A stretch of DNA of 32,254 nucleotides from Archaeoglobaceae archaeon (GTDB taxonomy: Archaea > Halobacteriota > Archaeoglobi > Archaeoglobales > Archaeoglobaceae). The notes under the pieces were generated by a model. It ran no database searches, was not told the DNA's origin, and worked only from the letters and a program-made list of their open reading frames with translations. The translations under genes were made by a program, and so were the position numbers. The DNA lies in contig JALWDS010000038.1 in the NCBI GenBank assembly GCA_027036775.1, forward strand, positions 57,254 through 89,507. The letters are read 5' to 3'. Of this stretch, positions 3,342 through 9,078 are shown piece by piece (the stretch's first letter is position 1; every line of letters begins with the position of its first letter).

Positions 3342-3840
3342 ACTCGTAGTCCTCCTCGTTCAAAACTATGGCTATATCCGCGGAGTTCTTTAAGGCGGTA
3401 GAAAATCCGGGCTCCATTCCGATTATTATAGTCTCCTTTCCCATCTCCATAGCCTTCTTCAAAACCGCCTTGAAGTCCGCATCTCTCGTAACCAATGCCA
3501 GAACGTCTATCAAGTCGTTGTAGATCAAATCCATAGCCTCTACGGCCATTCTGACGTCAACGTCCCCTGAGGTTATCACTGGCTCGAAACCCTGATTTTC
3601 CACGGCCTCAATCAGTTTGTCGGTTGCGTATTGGTTTAAAAACACCTTTGCAACCTTTATGTCACCGTATTCGCTCAAGATTTCTCTAATTTCAACCAAA
3701 TTCAAGTTGAACTCCTTTCTGAGCATGTTCGGTCCATCTACGAGGACCGCTATCCTCTTTCTACTCTCCTGCTTCCTCCTCGAAAGAATCTCCTTGATCC
3801 TTTGAACCTTAGACAGACTCAACCTCTTCTTTATCGGCAT
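3334..3840 (-). CDS. NYN-domain (PIN-like, LabA/DUF88) putative ribonuclease
   Basis: The 168-aa protein has a basic N-terminal stretch (residues 1-30) followed by a NYN domain. Acidic motifs of the PIN-like fold are visible: VDGPN near 34-38, GDVDVRMAVEAM near 93-104, and TRDADF near 119-124. Members are thought to be Mg2+-dependent RNases; no substrate is known for this archaeal form. Its start lies inside the 3' end of leuA (32-bp overlap) with GGGGATGAG just upstream, and its end overlaps pyrF by 8 bp, so the three genes are probably translated from one mRNA. The metabolic link is unexplained. Confidence 0.88.
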   Translation of the reverse strand: MPIKKRLSLSKVQRIKEILSRRKQESRKRIAVLVDGPNMLRKEFNLNLVEIREILSEYGDIKVAKVFLNQYATDKLIEAVENQGFEPVITSGDVDVRMAVEAMDLIYNDLIDVLALVTRDADFKAVLKKAMEMGKETIIIGMEPGFSTALKNSADIAIVLNEEDYEYD

Positions 3841-5341
3841 TTCTCATCCCCTTTCTCCTCCTTTTGAGCATAAGGTAGTTTACCGCTTTAACTACCGCAT
3901 CGAAAGACGCCATGACTATGTCCGCACCTGCACTTCTCGCTGTAAAAGTCTCTCCGTCCTCGTCTTCAACGGTTACGTAGACGTTTGCGAGGGCATCGCT
4001 CCCACCGGTTATGGCATCCAACCTGAACTCCGTAATCCTAACTTTCCTACCCAGAAGCTCACTCACAGCCTTAAAAGTGGCATCCACTGGTCCAACACCT
4101 ATTGCCGAGGTGATTTTCCTCTCGCCCCACACGTTCGCGTTTATTACCGCTGTCGGAGTTATCTTGTTTCCCGTCAGCACCGTAACCTCTTCAACGCTCA
4201 GAACCTTGTCCTTCTCGCTGATCTCACCTAAAACAGACTCTGCAATTGCAAACAGATCCAAGTCCGTGACCTTCTTACCCTTGTCACCCAACTCCTTAAC
4301 CTTCTGAACTATCAAGCTCAACTTTTCATCATCAACGACGTAACCTGCGTCTTCCAAAATCTTCTTTATCTGATGCCTACCAGCGTGCTTTCCAACGACT
4401 ATCCTCCTCCTATGACCGACCATCTCTGGAGTTATTATGCCGGGCTCGAAAGTCCTCGCATCCTTCAAAACTCCGTGAGCGTGGATTCCGCTCTCGTGAC
4501 TGAACGCGTTTTCACCCACTATGGGTTTGTTCGGTGGCATCTTTACCCCAGTAAGTCTCTCAACCAATCTGGAGGTTTCAACCAAGTATTCCATCCTTAC
4601 GTTGGTCTTAAATCCTTCGGCGTAGAGTATTGCAACTACCTCCTCAAGAGGTGCGTTACCAGCCCTCTCACCCAAACCGTTAATAGTAACTTGAACCTCG
4701 TCGGCACCGGCTAAAACAGCTGAATATGTGTTTGCGGTAGCTAAGCCAAAATCGTTGTGACAGTGAACGTCTATCGGCACCTTGAGGTGATCCCTCAACT
4801 CCTTTATAAGCTCATAGAACTTGAACGGTGTTGCTATTCCTACCGTATCTGGAACGTTTACTATGTCAACTTTAGCATCCTCTACAGCTTTGTAAATTCT
4901 CTTTAGAAAATCTATTTCCGTTCTAGTAGCGTCCATTGCGGAAAACATGCACTCAACGCCGTGATCCTTAACGTATTCAACGGCATTTACCGCCATCTCA
5001 ACTATCTCCTCTGGACTCTTCTTTATGGTGTGTTCGACCTGAATCTTCGAAGTCGGAACAAATACGTGAACCATGTCCACGTCCGCATCAATCGCCCTGT
5101 CGATGTCCCCCTTAACAACCCTCGCCAAACCGCAAACCTTTGCGTTTAATCCCAAGTTTGCAATCTCCTTTACCGCCTCGAACTCACCCTTGGAAGCGGA
5201 GGGAAACCCAGCCTCTATTACATCTACTCCCAGCTTATCGAGCTGTTTGGCAATCTGAATCTTGTAGTTGACGGGTAGAGAGACTCCGGGCATCTGTTCT
5301 CCGTCCCTCAGCGTGGTATCGAAAATCTTGATCGTTCTCAT
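3809..5341 (-). CDS. leuA: 2-isopropylmalate synthase (LeuA/CimA family)
   Basis: Predicted to condense acetyl-CoA with 2-oxoisovalerate, the first step of leucine synthesis. The 510-aa protein has the DRE-TIM catalytic motif FDTTLRDGEQMPG near residues 5-17, the metal-binding HCHNDFG and the GLGERAGN loop, plus the C-terminal allosteric domain. NVPDTVGIATP and EAGFPSAS resemble LeuA more than citramalate synthase (CimA tends to have CDTVG), but substrate choice cannot be proven by eye. I set the start at ATG 5341 (MRTIKIF): a TATA-like AAATTTAAAAAAC at 5361-5373 is 26 bp upstream, whereas the longer ORF to 5398 runs through a box C/D sRNA. It leads the leuA-NYN-pyrF operon. Confidence 0.87.
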   Translation of the reverse strand: MRTIKIFDTTLRDGEQMPGVSLPVNYKIQIAKQLDKLGVDVIEAGFPSASKGEFEAVKEIANLGLNAKVCGLARVVKGDIDRAIDADVDMVHVFVPTSKIQVEHTIKKSPEEIVEMAVNAVEYVKDHGVECMFSAMDATRTEIDFLKRIYKAVEDAKVDIVNVPDTVGIATPFKFYELIKELRDHLKVPIDVHCHNDFGLATANTYSAVLAGADEVQVTINGLGERAGNAPLEEVVAILYAEGFKTNVRMEYLVETSRLVERLTGVKMPPNKPIVGENAFSHESGIHAHGVLKDARTFEPGIITPEMVGHRRRIVVGKHAGRHQIKKILEDAGYVVDDEKLSLIVQKVKELGDKGKKVTDLDLFAIAESVLGEISEKDKVLSVEEVTVLTGNKITPTAVINANVWGERKITSAIGVGPVDATFKAVSELLGRKVRITEFRLDAITGGSDALANVYVTVEDEDGETFTARSAGADIVMASFDAVVKAVNYLMLKRRRKGMRNADKEEVESV

Positions 5342-5373: not shown

Positions 5374-5428
5374 TTTCAGCTACCCCAGAACTCATCATCC
5401 CATCAGAATCCCCAGCCTCATCATTCGT
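5373..5428 (-). ncRNA. box C/D guide sRNA (second of tandem pair)
   Basis: Read on the minus strand, all four boxes match consensus: C ATGATGA (5424-5418), D' CTGA (5406-5403), C' ATGATGA (5398-5392) and D CTGA (5379-5376). The D' guide is 11 nt (GGCTGGGGATT), the D'-C' spacer 4 nt, and the D guide 12 nt (GTTCTGGGGTAG). These sizes are typical of archaeal sRNAs that direct 2'-O-methylation with L7Ae, Nop5 and fibrillarin. By the N+5 rule the targets would be the second C of AATCC and of CTACC, in RNAs containing AATCCCCAGCC and CTACCCCAGAAC. I could not name the target. A TATA-like TTTTAAAAATCC lies ~25 bp upstream. Confidence 0.85.
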
Positions 5429-5445: not shown

Positions 5446-5457
5446 GATTTTTAAAAT
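5446..5457 (-). promoter_or_regulatory. TATA-like element of the second tandem C/D sRNA
   Basis: On the minus strand TTTTAAAAATCC is centred near 5452, ~25 bp from the predicted sRNA 5' end near 5428. It lies in the short gap between the two C/D sRNAs, so the second RNA can be made independently. Confidence 0.5.
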
Positions 5458-5512
5458 TTCAGATGCCGTGGATATCATCACTCCTCAGATGGGCAAGGGT
5501 TTCATCACGCAA
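5456..5512 (-). ncRNA. box C/D guide sRNA overlapping the rqcH stop codon
   Basis: On the minus strand: C GTGATGA (5508-5502), D' CTGA (5488-5485), C' GTGATGA (5481-5475), D CTGA (5462-5459). The D' guide is 13 nt (AACCCTTGCCCAT), the D'-C' spacer 3 nt, and the D guide 12 nt (TATCCACGGCAT). The rqcH stop TGA (5507-5505) is part of box C, so this RNA may be released from the rqcH transcript 3' end. Only a weak TATA-like AAAATTCTTA (about 5541-5550) is seen upstream. N+5 predicts methylation of the last G of ATGGG and the last C of ATGCC in the targets; target RNAs unknown. Confidence 0.87.
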
Positions 5513-7388
5513 CCTTTACGATTCTCGATCTCCCGGGTGGTAAGAATTTTGCTATTTCATCTGGAGTTGCTATCGCCTTAACGACGTGTTTTTCATCCTC
5601 CTTAGCATTCTCAACCAAAGTCTTGGCTATCTCAACCGCCAACTCGTTCTGTTCTTTATCACCAATCTCCAAAACGACGTAGTGATCGCAGTGATTTGAT
5701 ATGGCATCGACTGGCCCGCCCATAAGCCTTAAATTTCTCAAATCGACACCGATAGCACATTTAAGCTCGACGGTGATGTAGTTCCTCTTTCCGACTATAT
5801 AAAACGACCCCTTCGGTAAATACTCCCCAGCCTTTGCTGACCTCTTGACCTGTTCTGGAGTTACGTAGTAAACTTCACCGCTGTGAATCCCCTGCTTCCA
5901 GAGGGATGAGTATATGGCCGAAAACTGTGCAGTCTCAATTAAACTCTTCTCTCCCGCCTCCTGCCCCCTCTTCAAAACTACGGCAGGTGCTCCCGGTGTT
6001 TGGGTGTGGAAGAACAAGTCCTTAGGTTCCAAATACTTAGAAACTATCTCCTCGTTCATCTGAGCGTTTCTCCCACCTATGGCCAAGAATCCTTCGGAAG
6101 TGATGAACCACCTGAACCTCTCGAACCACTCCCTCTTCCTGACGATCCTTATCGGTGCGACGTATCTAAGGCTCTCCCTTTTTTCCGCCTTCTCTATCTC
6201 CTCCTTAGTCTTCTCTATGGCTTTTAAAAGACCCTCAAGCTTCTCCTTGGCCTTCTTAGCCCTCTCGTAATAAGTTTCCGCAATACCGTGAACGTCTTTG
6301 TCCAAGTCCAGCCTAACGATTCTACCCTTTATCTCAACCGTAACGTAATCCTTGCCAACTTCCTTGACGAACTTCAAACTCTTGACCTTCCTCTTGAAAT
6401 CCTCAAAGTCCATCTCCTCTCTCGCCTTCTTAAATGCGTTGAGAGCTTTTTCGACAACGCTGTAATTTTCGTAAATGAAGTCTCCAAGCGACTTGAACTC
6501 GTTCATCTCCTCCTCAAGCCTCCTCTTGGTTTCGAGCTGTATTTCAAGCCTCTTCCTCAACTTCTTTAACTCTTCGCTCTCCTCAACTTCGATTTCGGCT
6601 ATCATCTTCGAGTAAAACTCGTCCAAGGCCCTGTTGAAGCTGTCGAAGTATCTCTTTTCAAAACCCTCGTAGTATCTCAGTTCGATTGGTAGAACATCCA
6701 CGTATTCTCCGTTCTTAACCACGATGTGCGGTTTTAAATTCCCTTCAAAAACTGGCTTGAATATGGATTGAATGGCTTCAAAAATCCTCTCAAACTCCTC
6801 ATCGCTCAACTGACTACCGAGCTTGTTTTTGTCTATTCCAGCCCTCAAGCATGTCTCTTCGGCAAACAAACCACCCAAACCGCACTTCGTGGCTAAGAGC
6901 TTTACTATCTCTCTATCTTCATGGCAAAGAACTTTAATCTCCTCCAAGGTCAATTCGAAGGGGGCCTTCCTCTTCGGGAACTCGTAAACCCCCCTCTTTC
7001 CGTGAATATCCATTATCACGTTGTAGTTCTCATCAGTTAGGGCTACGTTCCCCTTAGCGAATAGCTCGGCAACGATCTTCCTATCTCCAAAGTCTATAAC
7101 TACAATCCTATCGAAATCGTGCTGTTCAACGTTCTTTATTCGCTTGCCTTCGAGGTGCTTCCTCAAAAGCATTGCAAAGGGTGATGGAAACTTGGGACTC
7201 TCCTTCGGAAAGATCGTTAGGTGAATCCTCCTACCAGCTTCGATTATCAAATCCCTCCTACCTTCGCTGTAAATCTTGATCCTTATCTCGTTGGGGGGAT
7301 AGTGATAGATCTTCTCAACCTTGCCTCCCTCTATCTCCTTCAACTCCTTAACGCACGCGTAGATGTCCAAAGCTGACATCGACTTCAT
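5505..7388 (-). CDS. rqcH: Rqc2/RqcH homologue (NEMF/NFACT family ribosome rescue factor)
   Basis: The 627-aa protein binds obstructed large ribosomal subunits that still carry peptidyl-tRNA. In bacteria and probably archaea it recruits tRNA-Ala to add C-terminal Ala tails. It shows the N-terminal NFACT-N domain with the DR motif in HDFDRIVVIDF (~residues 85-95), two helix-hairpin-helix regions, a long charged coiled coil (~275-420), and the NFACT-R domain beginning RWFITSEGFLAIGGRNAQMN (~434-453). ATG 7388 is preferred over the internal ATG at 7379 because TTTTATAGG on this strand is ~25 bp upstream. It is monocistronic except for the C/D sRNA at its end, and divergent from elp3. Confidence 0.93.
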   Translation of the reverse strand: MKSMSALDIYACVKELKEIEGGKVEKIYHYPPNEIRIKIYSEGRRDLIIEAGRRIHLTIFPKESPKFPSPFAMLLRKHLEGKRIKNVEQHDFDRIVVIDFGDRKIVAELFAKGNVALTDENYNVIMDIHGKRGVYEFPKRKAPFELTLEEIKVLCHEDREIVKLLATKCGLGGLFAEETCLRAGIDKNKLGSQLSDEEFERIFEAIQSIFKPVFEGNLKPHIVVKNGEYVDVLPIELRYYEGFEKRYFDSFNRALDEFYSKMIAEIEVEESEELKKLRKRLEIQLETKRRLEEEMNEFKSLGDFIYENYSVVEKALNAFKKAREEMDFEDFKRKVKSLKFVKEVGKDYVTVEIKGRIVRLDLDKDVHGIAETYYERAKKAKEKLEGLLKAIEKTKEEIEKAEKRESLRYVAPIRIVRKREWFERFRWFITSEGFLAIGGRNAQMNEEIVSKYLEPKDLFFHTQTPGAPAVVLKRGQEAGEKSLIETAQFSAIYSSLWKQGIHSGEVYYVTPEQVKRSAKAGEYLPKGSFYIVGKRNYITVELKCAIGVDLRNLRLMGGPVDAISNHCDHYVVLEIGDKEQNELAVEIAKTLVENAKEDEKHVVKAIATPDEIAKFLPPGRSRIVKVA

Positions 7389-7454: not shown

Positions 7455-9026
7455 ATGGACGCCTTGATAGAGATAGGTAGGGAGATACTGAGAAGAGAGC
7501 CAAAGACTAAGGAGGAGATTGCGAAGATAAAGAAGGTAGTCAGTAAAAGGTTCAAACTACCAAAGATTCCGAGCGATGCTGAAGTTCTTAAGGCTTGGAA
7601 GGGAAAAGAGGGTTACGAGAAGCTTAGGGATATATTGAAGGTCAAACCAGTTAGAACCATTTCAGGCGTTGCGGTTGTGAGCGTGATGACTTCTCCAGCT
7701 CCGTGTCCTCACGGTAAGTGTGTAATGTGCCCAGGAGGAGTTGAGAGGGGAACTCCTCAAAGCTACATCGGATTGGAGCCGGCAGCCCAGAGGGGAAGAC
7801 AGCACAACTACCATCCGTTCAGGCAGGTTTACTCAAGGTTAAAGGAGCTTCACGATTTGGGACACGATGTGGATAAGGTTGAGATAATAGTGATGGGCGG
7901 AACCTTTCCTGCGAGAGCCAGAGAATACAAGGAGTGGTTCATGTTGAATGTCTTCAACGCCCTAAACGCTTTCGGTAGAAAGAGGTTTAAGTTCGAGAGG
8001 AATTTGGAGAAGGCTAAAAGAAAAAACGAAAGGGCCAAGGCGAGGTGTGTAGGCGTCACATTCGAAACCCGTCCAGATTACGCTAAGGAGGAGCACATAG
8101 TTGAGATGTTGAGATTCGGAGGGACCAAGGTCGAGTTGGGAGTCCAAAGCGTTTACGACGACGTTCTCGAAACCATAAAGAGAGGACATACCGTTGAGGA
8201 TGTCGTTAAGGCTACCCAGCTGTTGAAGGATTCCGCCTTCAAAGTCGGTTACCACGTTATGCCCGGTTTACCTAATTCGAATTTCGAGAGAGATTTGAAG
8301 ATGTTTAAAATCCTATTTGGGGACGAGAGGTTCAAGCCGGACTACCTCAAGATATACCCCACATTGGTGGTCGAGGGGACTGAGCTCTACAATTGGTATT
8401 TAGAAGGTAGATACAAACCTTATACGACCGACGAGGTCGTAGAACTGATTGCAAGGGCTAAGAGGTTCTTTCCAGTTTGGGTTAGGGTTCAGAGGATTCA
8501 GAGAGACATACCGATCGATAAAGCCATAGGTTTGGATAAGGGGAACGTCAGGCAGTTGGTTCATAAAAGGCTCAAGGAGCTGGGTTACCGCTGTAGGTGC
8601 ATAAGGTGCAGGGAAGTGGGTCACAGGGGATTGAACGCCGAAGCGGTTAAGGATGCTGAGCTCGTTGTAAGAAGATACAAGGCCTCGAAGGGAGTGGAGT
8701 TCTTCATATCCTACGAGATTCCCGAATACGACGCTTTGATTGGTTTCGTAAGGCTCAGGTTTCCTCACAAACCCTTCATAGAGGCCATAGAGAACTGTGC
8801 CTTGATTAGGGAACTGCACGTTTACGGTAAAGCGATTCCTATAGGTGCTAAGGAGAGTAATGCCTTCCAGCACAGAGGTTTCGGGGAGAGGTTGCTCAAA
8901 ACCGCCGAAGAGATAGCTAAAGAGAGGTTCGACGAAGTTGCGGTTATAAGCGGTGTTGGAGTTAGGGAGTATTACAGAAGGTTCGGATACAGAAAGAGGT
9001 TCGAATACATGGTTAAGAGGATTTGA
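7455..9026 (+). CDS. elp3: Elp3, tRNA uridine-34 carboxymethyl-forming acetyltransferase
   Basis: Elp3 uses acetyl-CoA and a SAM-derived radical to install the cm5U-type modification at the wobble uridine of tRNAs. The 523-aa protein carries the radical SAM cluster motif CPHGKCVMC (C84, C89, C92 from ATG 7455), the conserved GGTFPARAREYKEWF region, and a C-terminal GNAT domain with ELHVYG, QHRGFGERLLKTAEEIA and YYRRFGY. A Cys cluster in CRCIRCREVG (~residues 379-388) is typical of the linker. GTG 7428 would add nine residues but lies too close to the TATA element, so I favour ATG 7455. It is followed at once by a minus-strand C/D sRNA. Confidence 0.95.
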   Translation: MDALIEIGREILRREPKTKEEIAKIKKVVSKRFKLPKIPSDAEVLKAWKGKEGYEKLRDILKVKPVRTISGVAVVSVMTSPAPCPHGKCVMCPGGVERGTPQSYIGLEPAAQRGRQHNYHPFRQVYSRLKELHDLGHDVDKVEIIVMGGTFPARAREYKEWFMLNVFNALNAFGRKRFKFERNLEKAKRKNERAKARCVGVTFETRPDYAKEEHIVEMLRFGGTKVELGVQSVYDDVLETIKRGHTVEDVVKATQLLKDSAFKVGYHVMPGLPNSNFERDLKMFKILFGDERFKPDYLKIYPTLVVEGTELYNWYLEGRYKPYTTDEVVELIARAKRFFPVWVRVQRIQRDIPIDKAIGLDKGNVRQLVHKRLKELGYRCRCIRCREVGHRGLNAEAVKDAELVVRRYKASKGVEFFISYEIPEYDALIGFVRLRFPHKPFIEAIENCALIRELHVYGKAIPIGAKESNAFQHRGFGERLLKTAEEIAKERFDEVAVISGVGVREYYRRFGYRKRFEYMVKRI

Positions 9027-9078
9027 TCAGTTGCCAGACCTTCATCACGACTCAGTCAAGGCTGAACTCATCATCTCA
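9024..9078 (-). ncRNA. box C/D guide sRNA between elp3 and a DUF257-like gene
   Basis: On the minus strand: C ATGATGA (9074-9068), D' CTGA (9055-9052), C' GTGATGA (9048-9042), D CTGA (9030-9027). The D' guide is GTTCAGCCTTGA (12 nt), the spacer 3 nt, and the D guide AGGTCTGGCAA (11 nt). The D' guide is complementary over 10 nt to CAAGGCTGAA, a segment I recall from archaeal 16S rRNA just before CTTAAAGGAATTG. N+5 then predicts methylation of the first G in CAAGG. The D-guide target is unknown. A TATA element centred at 9102 lies 24-25 bp from the RNA 5' end and is shared with the gene at 9127. Box D abuts the elp3 stop codon on the opposite strand. Confidence 0.87.

Follow-up and report, generated by a model that had tools for sequence, protein, structure and literature searches.

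Does the small RNA gene that shares the stop codon of rqcH in an Archaeoglobaceae genome encode a genuine C/D box guide RNA, and does this overlap serve to regulate RqcH? A sequence-only reading of the window (the whole 32,254-nt stretch of DNA analyzed here) had placed a box C/D sRNA with four perfect boxes at 5456–5512 and proposed both its excision from the rqcH mRNA and a regulatory role for the shared stop codon. The features of the host gene and of this sRNA (hereafter sRNA 1) are as follows.

5505–7388, minus strand: rqcH, encoding an NFACT-domain protein of 627 aa (NFACT_N and NFACT-R_1), from the ORF and a domain search
5459–5508, minus strand: C/D box sRNA 1, 50 nt from the first base of box C to the last base of box D, from the sequence, a pattern match, and sub-threshold Rfam matches
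5502–5508, minus strand: box C of sRNA 1, GTGATGA, whose bases 2–4 are the rqcH stop codon
5489–5501, minus strand: D′ guide of sRNA 1, AACCCTTGCCCAT, 13 nt, with 11 Watson-Crick pairs to 23S rRNA
5485–5488, minus strand: box D′ of sRNA 1, CTGA, from the sequence
5482–5484, minus strand: spacer GGA between boxes D′ and C′ of sRNA 1, from the sequence
5475–5481, minus strand: box C′ of sRNA 1, GTGATGA, from the sequence
5463–5474, minus strand: D guide of sRNA 1, TATCCACGGCAT, 12 nt, target uncertain
5459–5462, minus strand: box D of sRNA 1, CTGA, from the sequence

The layout GTGATGA-13-CTGA-3-GTGATGA-12-CTGA follows the box order RTGATGA/CTGA/RTGATGA/CTGA with guides of about 9–13 nt, and the interval given previously consists of this 50-nt unit and a few flanking bases. 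The TGA of rqcH (5507–5505, minus strand) lies inside box C (5508–5502), so that the upstream ORF ends within an sRNA on its own strand. A search for the C-D′-C′ pattern TGATGA-N7-18-CTGA-N0-14-TGATGA found three occurrences in the window, where shuffled sequence gives an expectation of 0.01, and 25 matches at 23 distinct places genome-wide, against none for the reversed pattern; these genome-wide sRNA counts come from pattern searches, which sRNAs with degenerate boxes escape. The L7Ae/Nop5/fibrillarin machinery is also represented in the genome, by genes for fibrillarin, for a Nop-domain protein, and for two members of the L7Ae family. The four boxes, the overlap, the pattern excess above chance in both window and genome, and the machinery genes together confirm the earlier description of perfect boxes with normal spacing on the rqcH strand and of a TGA formed by bases 2–4 of GTGATGA. 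Judged by its sequence, sRNA 1 is thus a real, perfect archaeal C/D box sRNA gene. It shares box order and size with the Rfam families RF00095 (snoPyro_CD) and RF01147 (sR12), and their covariance models match it on the correct strand. However, the scores fall below the gathering thresholds (e.g., sR12 at 5458–5510, E = 0.0013, with 25.7 bits where the gathering score is 38), presumably because the guide sequences differ.

The D′ guide pairs with 23S rRNA such that G1427 (own numbering) stands opposite D′+5 inside the duplex, and 2 of 200 shuffled guides equaled this pairing. Since blastn of the 23S sequence against E. coli 23S gave no match, a MAFFT pair alignment was used to place the predicted 2′-O-methylation site G1427 at E. 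coli 1305, and E. coli positions are accordingly approximate. Another sRNA in the same genome targets 23S G1425, two bases away. The D guide is weak: its best 23S matches are C1456 (9 bp including one GU pair), 29 nt from G1427, and C219 (8 bp), and 27 of 200 shuffled guides performed as well. Both rRNA and tRNA had been envisaged as targets in the sequence-only reading; the rRNA part held for the D′ guide, and the tRNA part did not, as neither guide convincingly matched any of 30 of the 43 tRNAs of the genome. Elsewhere, a C/D sRNA (L015) carries guides, GGTTGCTCTACG and ATCGAACCCG, whose matches lie in tRNAs (in their D-arm and T-arm regions) rather than in rRNA.

The core CCCTTGCCC of the D′ guide also serves as the D′ guide in four genomes of a sister genus, in C/D-like sRNAs that have the C box CGATGA and lie at other loci. 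Box D′ in those sRNAs is one base closer, and the predicted methylated nucleotide is therefore the neighbor of G1427. Since the core resides at other loci there, different sRNAs seem to serve the rRNA site around G1427 in different lineages.

How, then, would sRNA 1 be expressed? According to a review (PMC7994747, which cites Tripp et al. 2017), the majority of C/D sRNA genes in archaea have no promoter of their own, and in 25% of the genes the sRNA contains the stop codon of the ORF upstream, almost half of the time in box C; the review also describes a processing model for overlapping sRNA genes. sRNA 1 has in common with these 3′-overlapping genes the stop in box C, the same-strand orientation, and the lack of an evident promoter, as inspection by eye of the 60 nt before box C, which are 57% AT, revealed no TATA-like element. 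It does not differ from them in kind; what is new is that the host gene is rqcH, and the species. The upstream sequence and the agreement with the reviewed route support the earlier proposal that sRNA 1 is cut out of the 3′ end of the rqcH mRNA, and processing from this 3′ tail is the most likely origin of the RNA.

We therefore consider it very likely that the sRNA 1 gene is of the ordinary archaeal C/D box type, with its 5′ box laid over the 3′ end of rqcH. This reading draws on the four boxes and their overlap with rqcH, on the complementarity of the guide, on the machinery genes, and on the restriction to one lineage described below. From these features, we infer transcription, processing, RNP assembly, and methylation as follows. 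The rqcH transcript would carry sRNA 1 as its 3′ tail, the C/D and C′/D′ motifs of sRNA 1 would be bound by L7Ae, Nop5, and fibrillarin, and trimming would remove the flanking RNA that these proteins leave unprotected. Through its D′ guide, the resulting RNP may direct 2′-O-methylation (or folding) of 23S domain III around G1427. The D guide may be an orphan or may pair with C1456, about 29 nt from that site. Because UGA is already part of box C, the shared TGA can be explained by the way such genes arise, and it is probably a trace of the origin of the sRNA gene rather than a device for rqcH regulation.

Directly downstream of sRNA 1, and before a leuA-type gene, lies a second C/D box sRNA gene that had gone unnoticed in the earlier reading.

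5376–5424, minus strand: C/D box sRNA 2, ATGATGA-11-CTGA-4-ATGATGA-12-CTGA, from a pattern match, with an orthologue at the same locus of the congener G002
3809–5341, minus strand: leuA-type gene (HMGL-like, LeuA_dimer), from a domain search, with the likely start ATG at 5341–5339

A longer, mechanically called leuA ORF would start at 5398, inside box C′ of sRNA 2. Each guide of sRNA 2 has a match that includes two GU pairs, one at 23S:2092 and the other at 23S:2529. sRNA 1 and sRNA 2 share a strand, with 34 nt between them, and resemble the small clusters of two or three C/D sRNA genes described in PMC7994747. Unlike those clusters, sRNA 2 is preceded by an AT-rich, TATA-like stretch, ATTTTAAAA, and may have its own promoter.

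Conservation was assessed in 30 Archaeoglobaceae genomes, namely, that of the window and 29 others with a readable rqcH 3′ end, including the congeners G001 and G002. No C/D sRNA covers the rqcH stop codon at any of the 29 other loci, both congeners included, and the conservation of the 3′ end that the earlier reading had proposed to check in relatives is thus lacking. In G002, whose RqcH is 82% identical, sRNA 2 sits at the corresponding position with almost unchanged guides and sRNA 1 is missing, and G001 has neither sRNA at rqcH. Most other C/D sRNAs of the window's genome have a counterpart in G002 with a similar D′ guide. A move of an intact sRNA 1 to another site was rejected, since neither guide patterns nor blastn located one in G002 or G001, a search that a diverged copy could escape and in which G001 is 72% complete. 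The absence of sRNA 1 from a G002 locus that retains sRNA 2 suggests that sRNA 1 is either a recent gain in the window's species or a loss in G002. With no orthologue detected in the congeners, the sole conservation found for sRNA 1 is that of its guide core, which recurs in the sister genus with box D′ displaced by one base.

Stop codons also fall within sRNAs at other genes. In G002, a PAC2-family gene has its stop codon within a C/D sRNA, in box C (L076); its 92% identical counterpart in the window's genome (L016) has TAA as its stop codon and no sRNA on the same strand there. This case is the mirror image of the rqcH case, with the overlap present only in G002 in the former and only in the window's genome in the latter. 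A hycI-type gene (L010/L085) ends in the box C′ of an sRNA, and a small ORF of 81–83 aa ends in an sRNA box D′; both arrangements are kept in the two species of the genus. From the PAC2, hycI, and small-ORF overlaps, we conclude that the architecture tracks the predicted sRNA genes and not rqcH. A stop codon shared with box C is common and already described in archaea, and at rqcH it is confined to this one species among the 30 genomes.

These comparisons bear on the possibility that the boxes of sRNA 1 are a chance or decayed (pseudogene) arrangement yielding no functional guide RNA. The congeners without an orthologue at the locus and the weak D guide would be consistent with this possibility. 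However, four perfect boxes at standard spacing, the rarity of the three-box pattern in the window shuffles and its absence from the genome control, and an 11-bp Watson-Crick rRNA guide whose core recurs in another genus argue against it, and we regard it as extremely unlikely.

The sequence-only reading had further suggested a regulatory coupling, in which L7Ae, or the assembling sRNP, would occupy box C at the stop codon and could thereby affect RqcH termination or the stability of the mRNA, so that ribosome rescue would be linked to the supply of RNPs. Termination and k-turn formation would indeed compete for the same bases, and in Sulfolobus, L7Ae regulates translation via mRNA k-turns, one of which lies in the 5′ UTR of the L7Ae gene itself, and others have been proposed within the coding sequences of further genes (PMC5539422). 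Such control in some mRNAs makes the regulatory idea conceivable, and nothing found here supports it for rqcH. The overlap is absent from the 29 other family loci, and conserved coupling to rqcH was rejected on this account. The same arrangement occurs at unrelated genes, and reporter effects of 3′ overlaps, as described in PMC7994747 (citing Tripp 2017), were neutral or slightly negative. The proposed link is therefore unsupported, and we consider it very unlikely. Even less probable is a version limited to this species, in which competition between sRNP assembly on box C and rqcH termination would form a recently evolved switch between RqcH and guide-RNA production.

An ordinary sRNA gene that borrows a host stop codon thus remains the preferred reading, and sRNA 1 is a clean further example of this use of host-gene stop codons by archaeal C/D sRNA genes. 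UGA codons have been proposed to favor the evolution of C/D motifs (PMC7994747), and the congeneric pair, with the rqcH overlap here and the PAC2 overlap in G002 opposite a TAA here, fits the seeding of new box C motifs by UGA stops. The rqcH overlap reveals little that is specific to ribosome rescue.

A third sRNA gene, also absent from the earlier reading, lies farther along the window.

About 9024–9078, minus strand: C/D box sRNA 3, which passes the Rfam RF00095 threshold

sRNA 3 overlaps the end of an elp3-like ORF by 3 nt in antisense orientation and has the TATA-like sequence TTTATA upstream, and its D′ guide forms 10 Watson-Crick pairs with 16S:878. At two other loci (L013 and L018), C/D sRNAs start 4–8 nt past a tRNA gene on the same strand, and tRNA-sRNA dicistronic transcripts are therefore likely there.
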